A stretch of 64,000 nt of DNA from an uncultured Sulfurovum sp. (GTDB lineage Bacteria > Campylobacterota > Campylobacteria > Campylobacterales > Sulfurovaceae). The DNA lies in assembly GCA_902727935.1 (NCBI GenBank), contig CACVAX010000052.1, positions 1 through 64,000 of the forward strand, given 5' to 3'. The notes beneath the pieces were generated by a model. The model was not told where the DNA came from and did no database searches. It was given only the letters and a program-made list of their open reading frames with translations. A program made the position numbers and the translations under genes. This document shows, one piece after another, positions 5,172-12,259 of this stretch; within the stretch, counting starts at the first letter, position 1; each line of letters opens with the position of its first letter.

Positions 5172-6731
5172 ATGAGTAAAGAAATTATTAAAATATTTGA
5201 TACAACACTTAGAGACGGAGAGCAAAGCCCTGGGGCTTCTATGAATACAGAAGAGAAGATTCAGATTGCGATTCAGTTGGAGAAACTAGGAGTAGACATT
5301 ATAGAAGCAGGGTTTGCAGCAGCGAGTCCTGGTGATTTTGATGCCATTGAAAAGATTGCACAACGTGTGACAAAATCAACCGTCTGTTCTTTAGCAAGAG
5401 CAACAGATGCAGATGTAAAAGCAGCAGGTGAGGCGATAGCTAGAGCCAATATGAAGCGAATTCATACCTTTATTGCTACTTCAAAAATCCACATGGAACA
5501 TAAACTTAAAATGACCCCTGATGAGGTGATAAAACGTGCCGTTAGAGCCGTTTCGTATGCCCGTGAATTTGTGGAGGATGTTGAGTTTTCATGTGAAGAT
5601 GCAGGGCGAAGTGACATCGGTTTTATGAAAGAGATTACAGATGCTGTTATTGAGGCTGGTGCTTCCACCATTAACTTACCCGATACAGTAGGCTTTAGAT
5701 TGCCTTTTGAGATAGGGGAGATGGTGAAGATAATGTCCCAATACACCAAAGATAGAGCCATTATCTCGGTACACAATCACAATGATTTAGGTTTAGGGGT
5801 TGCCAACTCCTTTGAAGCAGTGATTAATGGAGCACGACAAGTTGAATGTACCATTAACGGGCTTGGAGAACGTGCTGGAAATGCTGCATTAGAAGAGATA
5901 GTGATGGCACTCAAAGTACGTGGCGATGTTTTTTCCAAATACAAAACAAACATCAACACCAAAGAGATTTATCCAAGTAGCCGTTTAATTGCAAATATAA
6001 CAGGCATCGAACCTCAACCAAACAAAGCCATTGTCGGTAAAAATGCCTTTGCTCATGAGAGTGGGATTCATCAAGATGGTATGTTGAAAAATCGTGAGAC
6101 TTATGAGATTATGAGTCCTGAGAGTATTGGTTTGGTGAAAAATAATACTTTAGTATTGGGTAAACATTCAGGACGGGCTGCCTTCAAAGACAAGTTAGCC
6201 AAATTAGGATTTACCTTAGAAAAAGAGGCACTTAATGCTTCTTTTGAGCGTTTTAAAATTTTAGCAGATAGAAAAAAAGATATCTATGATGATGATTTAA
6301 GAGCGTTGGTCACCAATGAAATGACCAAAGGCGTACAAGTCTATGAGTTGATTTCTTTACAGTTAATGGATTGTTCCAATGGTGTTCCCTCGGCAGCTGT
6401 CAAGATACGAAAAGAGAATGAAGAGCTTATGGAAGCTGGAATAGGTGAAGGAACAATTGATGCTATTTTTAAAACCATTGACCGAATTTCTGGTTTTGAA
6501 GGAACACTCAAAAGCTACAAAGTAAAGTCGGTAACCGAAGGGAAAGATGCCTTAGCTTCTGTAACGGTTAAAGTCTCTTTTTCAGAAGAAGAACCAGCCA
6601 TTATTGGGCATGGTGTGCATATTGATACCATGTTAGCAAGTGCTAGAGCCTACATTGGTGCATTGAACTCTTACCTTAGCATGGCTGGAAAATTGAAGAA
6701 GAGGTATAGTGATACTAACAGTACGGTGTAG
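5172..6731 (+). CDS. leuA: 2-isopropylmalate synthase
   Basis: 519 residues, full length for the bacterial enzyme. It condenses acetyl-CoA with 2-oxoisovalerate in the first step of leucine synthesis in the cytoplasm. The N-terminal TIM barrel shows the metal and substrate motif [15 protein letters not shown] (residues about 10-24), HNHNDLG near 200 and GERAGN near 230. The C-terminal third, after an [10 protein letters not shown] motif, is the allosteric leucine-binding domain. The ATG is preceded by GAGAGGTGAT. It is monocistronic here; a large inverted repeat follows 17 bp after the stop. Confidence 0.96.
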
Positions 6732-6799: not shown

Positions 6800-8020
6800 A
6801 TGTTAGAGAATTTTTTTCAACTCAGTCAAAATTATGTCTTAAACTACAAGCAAGTGTACGTACGTTATTTTTTAAAAACGCATGATTTATCAAATCGCTT
6901 TTCAATTATTTCTGGACAAAGAGGAATTGGTAAAACAACAGCGATTATAGAATATATGCAACAACAATACTCCGACCTTTACACCACAAAAGCACTCTAT
7001 ATTCAAGCTGACCATTTTTTGTTAGGGGATGTTTCACTTTATGAGATAGCTGATGAGTTTGTAAAAATGGGTGGAGAGTTACTTTGTATTGATGAGATTC
7101 ATAAGTATTTTAATTGGTCGCAAGAGTTAAAAAGTATTAACGATACTTTTAGAGAATTAAAACTTTTGGTTTCGGGTAGTTCAGCATTAGAGATACACAA
7201 AGGTTCTTATGATTTAAGTAGAAGAGCTTTGGTTTACAGTATGAAAGGTATGAGCTTCCGTGAGTTTTTAGAAATTCGTTTAGAGTTAGAATTACCGTCA
7301 ATTAAACTACAAAGTTTACTTTTAGAACATCAGCCATTTAGTCAAGAAATCATAGATAAACTTGCTACTAAAAAAGAGAAGATATTACCTCTATTTAATG
7401 AATATTTAAAAGTTGGGTACTACCCTTATTATTTTGAATATAACAATCAAGAGCAGTTTTATTTGGCATTAGAACAAAACATACATACAACCATAGAGAG
7501 TGACTTACTTTCAGTTTATCCATCCTTAACAGGTCTTAGTATTAAAAAGCTCAAATCTTTACTGAAAGTCATCTCAGCTTCTGTACCATTTATTCCAGAT
7601 ATGAAAAAACTTAAAGGAATTATTGGTGTGGGGGATGAACGTACTTTAAAAAACTATTTAAAATACCTTGAAGATGCTGGACTCATAAAGATGTTAATGA
7701 AAAGTTCAAGAGGTTTAGGGAGTATTGAAAAACCTGAAAAAATATATTTGGACAATAGTAATTTACTCTTTACTTCAAGTGCTGAGATTGGAACGGTAAG
7801 GGAGACATTTTTTATGAATCAAGTAAGTAAAGACCATGAAATAATTGCTCCTAAAAATGGAGACTTTTTAGTAGATGAAACATACTGGTTTGAAGTAGGT
7901 GGTAAAAATAAAAGCTTCAAACAAATCAAAGAGATGAACAATTCATTTGTTGCTGCTGATGAAATTGAACGTGGATTTGGTAATAAGATTCCTCTTTGGT
8001 TGTTTGGGTTTTTGTATTAA
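6800..8020 (+). CDS. AAA-type ATPase with DUF4143 C-terminal domain
   Basis: 406 residues. Walker A GQRGIGKTT at 39-47 and Walker B LLCIDE at 94-99, followed by a sensor-like VSGSSA, place it in the AAA_14/DUF4143 group. The C-terminal part includes a winged-helix-like segment and ends with a nuclease-fold-like element (FLVDETYWFEVGGK, a D-x(n)-E-x-G-x-K pattern). The function of this widespread family is not settled; copies are often found near mobile or toxin-antitoxin genes, as here. The start at 6800 has AGGAG inside the inverted repeat. Confidence 0.85.
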   Translation: MLENFFQLSQNYVLNYKQVYVRYFLKTHDLSNRFSIISGQRGIGKTTAIIEYMQQQYSDLYTTKALYIQADHFLLGDVSLYEIADEFVKMGGELLCIDEIHKYFNWSQELKSINDTFRELKLLVSGSSALEIHKGSYDLSRRALVYSMKGMSFREFLEIRLELELPSIKLQSLLLEHQPFSQEIIDKLATKKEKILPLFNEYLKVGYYPYYFEYNNQEQFYLALEQNIHTTIESDLLSVYPSLTGLSIKKLKSLLKVISASVPFIPDMKKLKGIIGVGDERTLKNYLKYLEDAGLIKMLMKSSRGLGSIEKPEKIYLDNSNLLFTSSAEIGTVRETFFMNQVSKDHEIIAPKNGDFLVDETYWFEVGGKNKSFKQIKEMNNSFVAADEIERGFGNKIPLWLFGFLY

Positions 8021-8079: not shown

Positions 8080-8336
8080 ATGAAAAATGCAGTTATTAAT
8101 GCTCGAATTGAGTCTGAATTAAAAGTTGATGTTGAGCATATTTTAAAAAATCTGGGTCTTAGTGCTACACAGGCTATCAATATGTTTTATCAACAGATTA
8201 AGCTTCAAAGGGGAATACCCTTTGAAATTAAGATGCCAAATGAAGAGACGCAACAAGTCATAGAAGAGTCATAGAAGAGTCACGTAAGGGTATTAATGTT
8301 GAAGATTTTTCTTTTGATGAGTTAACTCAAAAATGA
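8080..8336 (+). pseudogene. RelB/DinJ-family antitoxin, truncated by an 11-bp duplication
   Basis: The readable 64 residues are a typical RelB/DinJ antitoxin: ribbon-helix-helix N-terminus (KNAVINARIESELK), LGLSATQAINMFYQQI and GIPFEIK. A tandem duplication of TCATAGAAGAG (8258-8279) then causes a stop at 8272-8274. If one copy is removed, the frame continues for 17 more residues (RKGINVEDFSFDELTQK) to a TGA at 8334-8336, overlapping the toxin ATG exactly as in intact operons. The lost tail is the part that normally wraps the toxin, so neutralisation is probably lost or weakened. Confidence 0.88.
8258..8279. repeat. 11-bp tandem duplication in the antitoxin gene
   Basis: TCATAGAAGAG at 8258-8268 is repeated at 8269-8279. 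It shifts the antitoxin frame and produces the premature TAG. Confidence 0.95.
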
Positions 8337-8599
8337 AAATCAGACGACATAGAAAGTTCTTAAAAGATTTTAGAGATACAAGACTTAGTAACAGTCAATT
8401 TGAAAAATTTGTTTATTATATTAACGCTTTAAGAGAAGAGAATAAATTACCTCCAGAGTCTAAAGACCATTCATTGAGTGGTAACTATAAAGACTGTAGG
8501 GAATTTCATTTAGGTGGAGATATGCTAATTATATATGTTGAAAGTGATATTGATTAAATTATTTTAATGCGTCTAGGCACACATTCCCAGCTTTTTTAA
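8333..8599 (+). pseudogene. YafQ/RelE-family toxin with in-frame stop
   Basis: The open part (8333-8557, 74 residues) matches the YafQ branch of RelE mRNA interferases: KFLKDF near the N-terminus, then LPPESKDHSLSGNYKDCREFHLGGDMLIIY. A TAA at 8555-8557 interrupts it. In the same frame the sequence continues as IILMRLGTHSQLF and a stop at 8597-8599, which is the conserved RelE/YafQ C-terminal strand with its catalytic histidine region (R-x-GSHSELF in relatives). A single-base change to TAA therefore explains the break, and the product without this strand should be inactive. Confidence 0.88.
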
Positions 8600-8704
8600 T
8601 TTGAGAAGTGATGATAGGGTAAATTTAAAGTAGCTTGTCCCTTTTAATTAATATACTTCTTTTAAAAAGCTATATCATAGTTTTACCTATACTATGGATA
8701 GACT

Positions 8705-9343
8705 AAAAATAAACCCAAAGTATTAAGCCGAGTTCTGAGTGCTATTTCGCCCAAAAAAGATTGGGAAAAATAGTTTGTTTGCTGATGTTAAATCCATTGC
8801 ACGTCGCGTCGCACGTCGTTAGAGAAAAAAGGAGTAACGCTTTTTTCTCAATAACTTCAGCAGGACGGAGACCCTTATCCTGCCTATATTTTTCAATTAC
8901 AGCTATTTTCTTCTAAGACTCCCACTAACCAACATGCCTCTATCTCGGCATGTTTCGTGAAGTTTTTAGCTTCTACGGTTACTACCAATCTATTGTCTTC
9001 TGCTATACCTTACGGATTTCTTTAGGGCATATTTTCAACATGGAAAACTTAGCCCAACAGAAGCACACAATGTTAAAAAAACGATACTTAACATCACGGA
9101 AGATTTTTATGGCAAATTTGTAAACAAGACTCTGAGCAATTTTAGAGAATGCGTAACAATAAAATGTGTAGGTTCAATAAGATTTAACGAAGAAATAGTT
9201 AAAATTCTGTTGAGCCTTGTGCTTGTTGAGTGAAGTCATTAGTTTTTGAACGGACTTGGGGACTTCACTCATCCTTTATTTACAGCCTCTTTTAAAAATC
9301 TTCAAAAAAAGCTTTATCGCTGTTATGGTATACCTTTTTATGT
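8705..9343 (-). ncRNA. rnpB: Structured RNA resembling RNase P RNA, expanded
   Basis: Read on the minus strand, the order of conserved pieces follows bacterial RNase P RNA. AAGTCCG (9251-9257) can form P4 with CGGCTT in CAGAACTCGGCTTAATA (8721-8737), leaving the bulged U. Between them come CAACAGAA-n4-TAAC, GTAAGGTATAGC, GTAGAAG-CTAAAAACTTC, CCGAGATAGAGG and a GGATTTAACATCAGC joining stretch. Perfect stems occur at 8931-8938/8947-8954, 8822-8831/8840-8849 and 9229-9239/9259-9269. At roughly 640 nt it is far longer than the usual 350-400, and many family-conserved bases differ. The ends are estimated from a possible P1 pairing (9330-9342 with 8704-8722). It could be a diverged or decaying copy, or another structured RNA class. 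Confidence 0.55.
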
Positions 9344-9405
9344 TAGATAAAGTTTAAATTTGGGTGTTAATTGATTTGTTATTATATTTAATCCAAAGGC
9401 TATCA

Positions 9406-10266
9406 ATGAATATATTAAGACCTCTTGCAAAGGAAGAATTAGAGTATTTCTTTTCAGAACATTCACTTAAAGTTATTCAATACTTTATGAATACTTCTCT
9501 CTTTGCTCAACCAGAAGTGTATGAAACTAAAGAAAATTTACCAATCCAAATTCCCAAAGAACATTTAGAACAATGGTTTGTTCAAGCCCTACAAGTAGAA
9601 GCCGTTGGAGCAGGAAGCTATCCTATAGATATTTTAAAACCCAATGAATGGGGTGCAGATGTTAAAATGCTTTCTTGTAAGGTAGATAAAAACGATAATC
9701 TAGGTAATGGGGATAGTGGTGAAACTTCTTTGGCTCAAAAGTTTATAGGAACAGGAATTAGCTTAGATGAACAGTTTAAACAAAAACAATATCAAGAAAT
9801 TATTAATGGTTGGACATCCATTTGGAAAGAGAAACTTATCAATGTAAAAGCTCAAAAGAATATAGAGAAAATTTATTATTTTTTCTTTTTGAGAGGAAGT
9901 TCTAAAGAGAGTTATATTTGTGCTTTTGAGGTAAATAGTGAAGATATTAACACAAATACAATTAGCCAAAGAGATGAAAACGCTCAAATAAAACAATCTA
10001 TCTTTTTAAATGGTGTCATAGATTCAAAATATGGAAATGCAAAAATTTATAAAGCCAAAAAAAGATTGGAACTAAGACTGAAACCCAAAAAACTATTAGA
10101 TGATGAATTTTTAATAGCAATACCAACACAAATACCAACAAAAGAAGATATTTATGAGCTTGTGCAGGATGAAAGTAAATATTATAAATATATGTTAGAA
10201 AAATATAATAAGTTTTTACAAAAACCATTTACTAATAGAATAATTTCTCATCCTAAAGTAAGATAA
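9406..10266 (+). CDS. Candidate restriction endonuclease of the methyltransferase locus
   Basis: 286 residues from ATG 9406, which has AAAGG seven bases upstream; a GTG at 9364 is possible but less likely. I do not recognise the family. The segment IDILKPNEWGADVKML has the D-x(n)-D-V-K shape of a PD-(D/E)xK nuclease core, and Lys/Tyr-rich C-terminal regions are common in such enzymes. It lies tail-to-tail with a cytosine-5 methyltransferase, their coding ends touching (10266/10267), the usual arrangement of type II restriction-modification pairs. The function is inferred mainly from context. Confidence 0.55.
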   Translation: MNILRPLAKEELEYFFSEHSLKVIQYFMNTSLFAQPEVYETKENLPIQIPKEHLEQWFVQALQVEAVGAGSYPIDILKPNEWGADVKMLSCKVDKNDNLGNGDSGETSLAQKFIGTGISLDEQFKQKQYQEIINGWTSIWKEKLINVKAQKNIEKIYYFFFLRGSSKESYICAFEVNSEDINTNTISQRDENAQIKQSIFLNGVIDSKYGNAKIYKAKKRLELRLKPKKLLDDEFLIAIPTQIPTKEDIYELVQDESKYYKYMLEKYNKFLQKPFTNRIISHPKVR

Positions 10267-11634
10267 TTATTTTATGGTTTTTAATATTCTAAACTTTGCT
10301 ATTTTATGTATATTATTAATTGCTAAATATAAATCTTTAGGTACATAATCCATAGATTTAGAATTGAGATTATAGACCCATAAATATTCATTTTGTTTTA
10401 TCCGATTTGAATATTTTCTTTTTATAATTTTTTTTATTTTCATCGTATCTTTATCATAATTTCCTGTAAGAGTTAGGCATTTAATATTTATAATTGAGTA
10501 ATTAGATAAGTCAGGATATCCATACCAATTAAATTTAATTGGTTTTCTATAATTTAATGTTAATTTTTTATCAATTTTTTTAATAAATACAATTTTTCCA
10601 TTAAATTTTTTTAATATGTTAATCATGAAATCCAAGACTCTCTCAATCTCCCTAGCAAAAGGATAAACACCCACAGCAGGGACGGCGTTTCCTATTTGTC
10701 TTCTTACTTCTGTGTTACTTCCTTTAAAAATAAGGTCATCGGGGAAGGCTTGTAGTCTTGCTCTTTCTCTGTTGCTTAATGCTCGTGGTTCTTCATAGTG
10801 ATAAGTCCATGTTCCTCCTCCTCCACTTGCTAAGACTGTGTAGGCAGGTTTATTTCGGTCTAGTTTTCTATAGATATTTGACATTCGTCCTTTGACTGCT
10901 AATTCAGGAGGTAAATCTTTGAAGTTTCCTCCCTCAGGAATGGCTTGAAGTTTCGCAGTTGTAGTGGGCAATTGTTTGATGAAATTATGATTAACACATT
11001 TTTTATTGAGGTTTTCAAAAGCTTCTTGGCTTGTAATGTGTTTATTTTTATGTGTGTGTTTTGGTAATATGAATGTTTCTTTTATGTCATCTCTTACCCC
11101 AATAAATAATACCCTTTGACGAAGTTGTGGTACACCATAATCGGCGAAATTGACTAAATGTACTTGTAAAGTATAGCCTGTATCTTCAAATCTTTTAGTA
11201 ATGATTTTAATCGCTTCACCTTTGTTCGCTGATAAAATACCTTTGACATTTTCTGCTAAAAATACTTTGGGTCTTAAGACTTCTACAAAATTTACAAAAT
11301 TTTCATAAAGTTTACCGTTTATATCATCTTGTAAGCCAATTTGTTTGCCTACTATGGAGAAAGTGACACAAGGAAAACCACCCAATAATACATCATAATT
11401 TTCATGCTTAAAATCATTTGGATTAACTTTGGTAATGTCTTCATTTAAAACGGTTGTGTTTTTGAAATATTTGTTATCGTTTTTTAAAGTTTCACAAGCA
11501 TGAGCGTTTATCTCTAGGGCTTTATTTGTGGTGAAGTTGAGTTTTGGATAGTTTTTACCTAAAAATTGAAAGTCACCATGAAACCCAATATCCAAACCAC
11601 CAGCACCTGTAAATGTTGAAAAAATTTTATACAT
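10267..11634 (-). CDS. DNA (cytosine-5-)-methyltransferase, with C-terminal extension
   Basis: 455 residues. All core motifs are present: FTGAGGLDIGF (8-18, AdoMet binding), GGFPC with the catalytic Cys89, ENV (128-130), QLRQR (170-174), RERARLQAFPDD (289-300) and IGNAVP (314-319). It methylates C5 of cytosine in a short DNA site; the site cannot be read from the sequence. After motif X there are about 120 extra Lys/Tyr-rich residues not needed for the fold, possibly a fused accessory domain. Convergent with the candidate endonuclease and followed upstream on the same strand by a small gene 9 bp away. Confidence 0.93.
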   Translation of the reverse strand: MYKIFSTFTGAGGLDIGFHGDFQFLGKNYPKLNFTTNKALEINAHACETLKNDNKYFKNTTVLNEDITKVNPNDFKHENYDVLLGGFPCVTFSIVGKQIGLQDDINGKLYENFVNFVEVLRPKVFLAENVKGILSANKGEAIKIITKRFEDTGYTLQVHLVNFADYGVPQLRQRVLFIGVRDDIKETFILPKHTHKNKHITSQEAFENLNKKCVNHNFIKQLPTTTAKLQAIPEGGNFKDLPPELAVKGRMSNIYRKLDRNKPAYTVLASGGGGTWTYHYEEPRALSNRERARLQAFPDDLIFKGSNTEVRRQIGNAVPAVGVYPFAREIERVLDFMINILKKFNGKIVFIKKIDKKLTLNYRKPIKFNWYGYPDLSNYSIINIKCLTLTGNYDKDTMKIKKIIKRKYSNRIKQNEYLWVYNLNSKSMDYVPKDLYLAINNIHKIAKFRILKTIK

Positions 11635-12040: not shown

Positions 12041-12259
12041 ATGGAAGATAAAGCAAAAAAAATTATAAAATTAGCTTTGAAAAATAGAAAGATTAGTTAT
12101 GTTAAATTATCTGAAAAGATGCAAGAGAAAGGTTATGATTATAATGACAATTCTTTAAGAAGTAAAATCAATAGAGGCACATTCTCTTTTGCCTTTTTAT
12201 TGGAAGTTTGTGATAGTTTAGAAATAGACGTTGTTTGTTTAGATAAAAGGGATACATGA
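12041..12259 (+). CDS. DUF6471-type small DNA-binding protein, putative RM controller
   Basis: 72 residues with a helix-turn-helix-like layout: ISYVKLSEKMQEKG, then NSLRSKINRGTFSFAFLLEV, the hallmark of DUF6471 proteins. Such proteins resemble Xre-like regulators and are often near restriction-modification genes. It is divergent from the methyltransferase operon and probably controls expression of the locus; that role is inferred from context and size. The ATG is supported by the promoter at 12005-12013. Confidence 0.72.
   Translation: MEDKAKKIIKLALKNRKISYVKLSEKMQEKGYDYNDNSLRSKINRGTFSFAFLLEVCDSLEIDVVCLDKRDT

Follow-up and report, generated by a model that had tools for sequence, protein, structure and literature searches.

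Large, intricately folded RNAs are few in bacteria, comprising OLE, GOLLD, ROOL, raiA/ModT, introns, and RNase P RNA, and each new class of large RNA has so far been a candidate for novel RNA chemistry or architecture. GOLLD and ROOL RNAs have been described from phages and prophages, close to tRNA islands; a ROOL example is 659 nt long, and many GOLLD RNAs exceed 800 nt (PMC12286853). OLE comes from Gram-positive extremophiles or anaerobes and has known protein partners (PMC9723947, PMC12286853). Circularly permuted group II introns, formerly known as T-large, are ~900 nt long, with recognizable domains 5 and 6 (PMC8637638).

The structured RNA gene described here covers ~600 nt on the minus strand, from approximately position 9316 to 8715 of a 64-kb stretch of DNA (hereafter, the window), contig C52 of the 2.4-Mb metagenome-assembled genome (MAG) of an uncultured Sulfurovum sp. 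(G000; 60 contigs). Like this RNA, GOLLD and ROOL are large, ornate noncoding RNAs, of similar or bigger size, with elaborate folds and a location on mobile DNA. However, their Rfam models do not match it at either gathering or relaxed thresholds, its family has no match among phage records and no confirmed one among viral contigs, and a tRNA gene is nearby only in the copy L055, where it precedes the RNA. With OLE it shares a length of ~600 nt, an intricate fold, and highly conserved unpaired boxes, but the OLE model has no match here and there is no constant neighbor protein. The likeness to circularly permuted group II introns lies in their being large, structured, ORF-less, and present on chromosomes and plasmids; the Rfam models of group I and group II introns do not match the window copy or seven of its relatives.

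We consider it probable that this is a new class of large structured noncoding RNA (~560 to 730 nt), whose gene resides on mobile accessory DNA and whose product acts in trans. It is new in being unrelated to any catalogued RNA family; in its outward type, a large structured RNA, it resembles OLE, GOLLD, and ROOL. It combines strong covariation, a pseudoknot, and a candidate tetraloop-receptor contact with an apparently mobile, multicopy, and often defense-island setting. No previous description of it was found in the open-access literature.

Identification of the RNA gene

The RNA gene is flanked by a RelB/YafQ pair on one side and, on the other, by an ORF that is coupled with a C5-methyltransferase (Table 1); both its termini are inferred from conservation. 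At the gathering thresholds of Rfam 15, a search of the entire window gave no match to the element, and cmscan at E ≤ 10 over positions 8200 to 9800 returned only sub-threshold hits to unrelated families. The window copy and seven relatives (six plus the distant copy in G496) were all without a match among the 4,227 Rfam families, the relatives at E ≤ 1. No open frame is kept across the copies, with the longest one varying in strand, frame, and length from copy to copy; a protein-coding gene on either strand was therefore rejected.

TABLE 1 Features of the RNA gene and of its surroundings in the window
Feature	Positions	Strand	Evidence or remarks
AAA_14 ATPase, PADLOC candidate PDC-S01	6800..8020	+	Pfam, PADLOC; relatives adjoin RNA copies L047 and L043
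RelB (8080-8274) and YafQ (8333-8557) toxin-antitoxin pair	8080..8557	+	Pfam
Large structured RNA gene	8715..9316	-	Homologous copies; covarying fold (12 copies); GU>AC strand bias
Terminal hairpin, U-rich loop	8745..8770	-	Predicted here in most singly folded copies
3' hairpin GAGAAAAAAG / CTTTTTTCTC, bears pseudoknot loop	8822..8849	-	88% paired; 8/10 pairs double-changed
Pseudoknot 3' strand GTTACT, in loop of the 8849-8822 hairpin	8833..8838	-	Covariation
Domain II core stem AATAGCT / AGTTATT with inner hairpins	8850..8907	-	97.6% paired; 3/7 double-changed
Conserved box TAAGGGTCTCCG in covarying hairpin 8883-8860	8866..8877	-	Hairpin 91.7% paired; 5/7 double-changed
Hairpin with invariant GAAA tetraloop (8894-8891)	8888..8897	-	3/3 stem pairs covary; 100% paired
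Conserved box ATGCCGAGATA, invariant through ATGCCGAGAT	8941..8951	-	Alignment; served as search pattern
Pseudoknot 5' strand AGTAAC	8978..8983	-	Pairs with 8838-8833; 98.6% paired; 4/6 double-changed
Tetraloop-receptor-like 3' strand, UAUG core 9031-9028	9025..9032	-	UAUG in 12/12 copies
Tetraloop-receptor-like 5' strand, UAAG core 9051-9048	9047..9055	-	UAAG in 12/12 copies; preceding C in 11/12
P1 3' strand TAAAAATCTTC	9099..9109	-	P1 mostly invariant, 2 compensatory pairs
Domain I hairpin GAGTGAAGTC / GACTTCACTC	9228..9270	-	99.2% paired; 6/10 pairs double-changed
P1 5' strand GAAGATTTTTA, closes domain I	9293..9303	-	Pairs with 9109-9099; 98.5% of cells paired
Invariant 5' box AAAGCTTTTTTTG	9303..9316	-	Alignment, 12 copies
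Conserved upstream region, promoter-like; weak -10-like TATACCAT at 9332-9325 in the window copy	9317..9361	-	Upstream motif count
ORF conserved with the methyltransferase, candidate restriction enzyme	9364..10266	+	Adjoins methyltransferase in three genomes
C5-cytosine DNA methyltransferase	10267..11634	-	PF00145; MTase_II (PADLOC)
Small ORF of the methyltransferase module, resembling a DNA-binding regulator by eye only	12041..12259	+	Same-place homologues in L041 and L028

A conserved fold with a pseudoknot

The fold was counted on 12 full-length copies, 57 to 84% identical, and comprises 102 base pairs in two domains with covarying helices and a pseudoknot. At 57 of these pairs, both sides have changed in some copies with pairing kept. 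Pairing is seen in 90.1% of the cells, versus 79% in shuffled alignments and 38 to 51% when the partners are slid by 1 to 3 columns, a contrast that is inflated because the structure was derived from the same 12 sequences. None of 500 shuffles reached the observed values of pairing or covariation; the number of pair types was matched by 124 of them. GU pairs outnumber AC combinations (102 versus 39), which favors the minus strand, from which the RNA is presumably transcribed.

Support is strongest for the domain I hairpin, the core stem, the GAAA hairpin, the 3' hairpin, and the pseudoknot. P1, which spans ~200 nt, is nearly invariant in the 12 copies and is compensated in the distant copy (L078, from G496), where it is kept, by eye, via the change TAGATTTTT/AAAAATCTA. 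Helices 3, 5, 9, and 11 are weaker; of these, helices 5 and 9, with 62% and 60% pairing, respectively, may be wrong.

The UAAG strand lies opposite UAUG, with flanking C-G and G-U pairs; the 11-nt receptor of GAAA tetraloops has just such a core. Together with the GAAA loop, this near-invariant motif suggests a compact tertiary fold. Judging from the motif match, the GAAA loop would dock in the receptor, either intramolecularly or between two molecules. The 5' box, both receptor halves (UAAG and UAUG), and the GAAA loop are also retained, by eye, in the G496 copy.

Within 30 nt upstream of the RNA, 16 of 18 copies have a 5/6 match to TATAAT; the window copy is not among them, and a generic promoter scan of its upstream region found nothing. 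The putative promoter of the window copy is weak.

Distribution of the RNA family

The genome that carries the window encodes a second copy of the RNA on another contig (C54:2330-2773), 77% identical by blastn. Among 100 relatives, blastn found matches in 12, two of which were 27-nt matches only. When the spaced pattern of two conserved boxes was searched in genome_contigs (84,980 species), 19 matches were obtained; 11 of them, all in Campylobacterales-type MAGs, were real by blast, and the other 8, with no further similarity, were dropped as chance matches. A covariance model built on the 3' core (R1) detected the RNA in 9 of 175 genomes of the family and in 4 of 399 genomes sampled from the order; among 397 sampled from the phylum, its own genome was the sole match. 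At least five copies are present in G070, a member of another family. G496, from yet another family, has a distant copy, detected at E = 1.3e-7 by a model whose calibration was rough, and the 44 genomes of its family gave no further match. The RNA family is patchy: a minority of genomes in Campylobacterales, those of Sulfurovum and its relatives, have it, in several scattered copies. Some copies are truncated, at either end (L032, L056, L049), and in these MAG assemblies contig breaks fall inside some copies.

Phage records, plasmids, and Escherichia coli yielded no relatives of this RNA. There was no confirmed match in viral contigs, from collections that hold few Sulfurovum viruses, and six 16-mer matches in IMG/VR may well be due to chance.

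Genomic neighborhoods

Across the loci, neighbors of the RNA include AAA_14, RelB/YafQ, the C5-methyltransferase module, PDDEXK_2, AAA-ATPase_like/PDDEXK_9, HEPN, Uma2 (PDC-S03), and TerD-HSDR_N. By our own count, a defense-type neighbor is found at ~11 of 19 loci; L058, L081, and most of the G070 copies have no adjoining defense-type genes. No neighbor protein was seen to be constant across the copies, which makes a self-sufficient RNA or one relying on a host factor likelier than one with a dedicated neighboring protein. The protein encoded by the ORF at 9364-10266 is ~81 to 84% identical across three genomes and has no match in Pfam or PADLOC; it is possibly a restriction enzyme, given its pairing with the methyltransferase.

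The same cargo may be found on either side of the RNA. The methyltransferase module is on its 5' side in the window and in L041 and on its 3' side in L028; likewise, an AAA_14 gene (89% identical) flanks the RNA on the 5' side in C54 but on the 3' side in L043. Such alternating sides fit array-like shuffling or recombination between copies.

Several repeats accompany the RNA. In L032 (G024:C13, 1-5225), the first and last 70 bases are identical, and 5'-truncated RNA copies and repeats of the RNA 3' tail are interspersed between the HEPN, Uma2, and PDDEXK_2 genes; this contig appears to be a circle or a tandem cassette array. A ~98-bp hairpin repeat (TCTTGCAAAACT ... AGTTTTGCAAGA) recurs in several genomes, both close to RNA copies and at other sites (L047, 2848-2946; L049, 738-787; L051, 793-886).

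Evidence of mobility

Mobility of the RNA family is strongly suggested. In the RNA tree, G003 (genus g1) clusters with G137 (g5), and G025 (g1) clusters with G109 (g11) and G207 (g4), with supports of 89 to 97 for the mixed-genus groups, and the two G000 copies are not sisters. These mixed-genus subclades suggest horizontal movement, with old paralogy followed by loss as the alternative.

Among the copies, no exact insertion boundary, consistent target-site duplication, or mobilizing enzyme was found. The sole convincing flanking repeat is the 15-bp direct repeat ACGGTACTTAAATTT of L079, the RNA copy in G109 (6313-6323 / 6953-6963); a 12-bp repeat at L058, and other repeats besides, are short and distant from the RNA ends. 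SINE-like spread by target-primed reverse transcription was rejected, as only two G024 contigs have the 3'-tail repeats, copies may lack either end, and the presence of reverse transcriptases does not track that of the RNA. A reverse transcriptase ORF of ~745 to 761 aa does recur in the genus independently of the RNA (G000:C43:49877-50494, with relatives in G024, G025, G021, G010, and G020).

Apparent terminal inverted repeats in G070 were rejected as well, being instances of the genome-wide repeat GTCCCCNNACGGAAATTT. This repeat (e.g., in L106-L135) occurs 217 times in 2.4 Mb, versus once for the reversed control, and some of its occurrences adjoin RNA copies or lie within them (e.g., C133:874-891). 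It is a REP-like element, possibly moved by a REP-associated transposase.

Possible roles and alternative explanations

We propose that the RNA would be transcribed from the minus strand from its own promoter, in the conserved upstream region. The long-range P1 helix would close domain I, and domain II would probably pack by means of the GAAA tetraloop and its 11-nt receptor, within or between molecules, and of the loop pseudoknot. Acting in trans, the RNA would then serve as a scaffold or catalyst. The gene would be an accessory one, moved horizontally, often along with restriction-modification, toxin-antitoxin, and PD-(D/E)XK cargo. Since it would often travel with such cargo, the benefit would probably be that of the mobile island (defense, addiction, or self-maintenance) and not of core metabolism. 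As a more specific and tentative suggestion, the RNA could be the functional product of the mobile island, working as a ribozyme or as an assembly that consists of RNA only and is joined through tetraloop-receptor contacts, and serving defense, addiction, or its own spread in Campylobacterales.

The several dispersed copies per genome, the truncated copies, and the repeated 3' tails of L032 would also fit an RNA component of a transposition or RNA-guided system (a retroelement, guide, or transposon RNA) that obtains its protein in trans. This appears unlikely: beyond the variable neighbors, the truncation of either end, the lack of a consistent target-site duplication, and the confinement of tail repeats to G024, reverse transcriptases were not found in the carriers G019, G001, G028, and G029, and several were found in noncarriers.

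We see even less reason to regard the element as acting at the DNA level, as a repeated recombination site bordering gene cassettes, with an incidental transcript. The array-like alternation of cargo sides (the methyltransferase module in the window and L041 versus L028; AAA_14 in L047 versus L043) and the L032 contig, with RNA 3' tails between the genes, point in that direction. However, a helix spanning ~200 nt, the pseudoknot, and the GU>AC bias are better accounted for by selection at the RNA level, and the shuffling is equally explained by homologous recombination between repeats.

Action in cis, as a leader or attenuator for the adjoining genes, would agree with the codirectional accessory gene that follows the RNA in L043, L048, and L040, but the next genes are in the opposite orientation in the window, L041, and L028, downstream genes vary from copy to copy, and the RNA is far bigger than the usual leaders, all of which makes this explanation very improbable.

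Relationship to RNase P RNA

A sequence-only reading of this region had described a large structured element with RNase P features and offered three options for it: an expanded rnpB, a second rnpB in decay, or an undescribed RNA. The large structured element is real and well above what chance would give, as its homologues recur and display extensive compensatory change, and the last option is supported. The RNase P features did not hold up. Besides being a large structured RNA, what the element has in common with class A RNase P RNA (RF00010) is two short look-alike strings in the window copy, CAACAGAA (9212-9205) and the AACTCGGCTTA end (8734-8724). In an RNase P RNA, P4 and the ACAGAA and CGGCUUA elements would be conserved across homologues; here the look-alike strings vary among the copies, giving way, e.g., to CAGTGGCA or TTGGTAGAA, and to AACTTCTGCTCTA. 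RNase P models are silent over the element at E ≤ 10, and the genome has an ordinary class A rnpB on another contig (G000:C13:106190-106533; covariance match of 264 bits), two of the outcomes that the sequence-only reading had named as refuting it. Neither an expanded rnpB nor a decaying second copy is supported. RNase P RNA would be expected as the sole, essential copy, whereas G000 has two copies of this RNA and G070 at least five, with rnpB separate from them. As the covarying fold is also laid out differently, RNase P identity was rejected, and we attach next to no probability to either form of rnpB.

The stems that the sequence-only reading had viewed as insertions into, or expansions of, RNase P RNA are rather conserved helices of another RNA family. 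Of the three perfect stems that it named, those at 8742-8773 and 9070-9094 belong to this RNA, as the terminal hairpin and helix 8/9, respectively; the one at 8799-8818 falls in the conserved GACG-repeat region and does not covary in the model.
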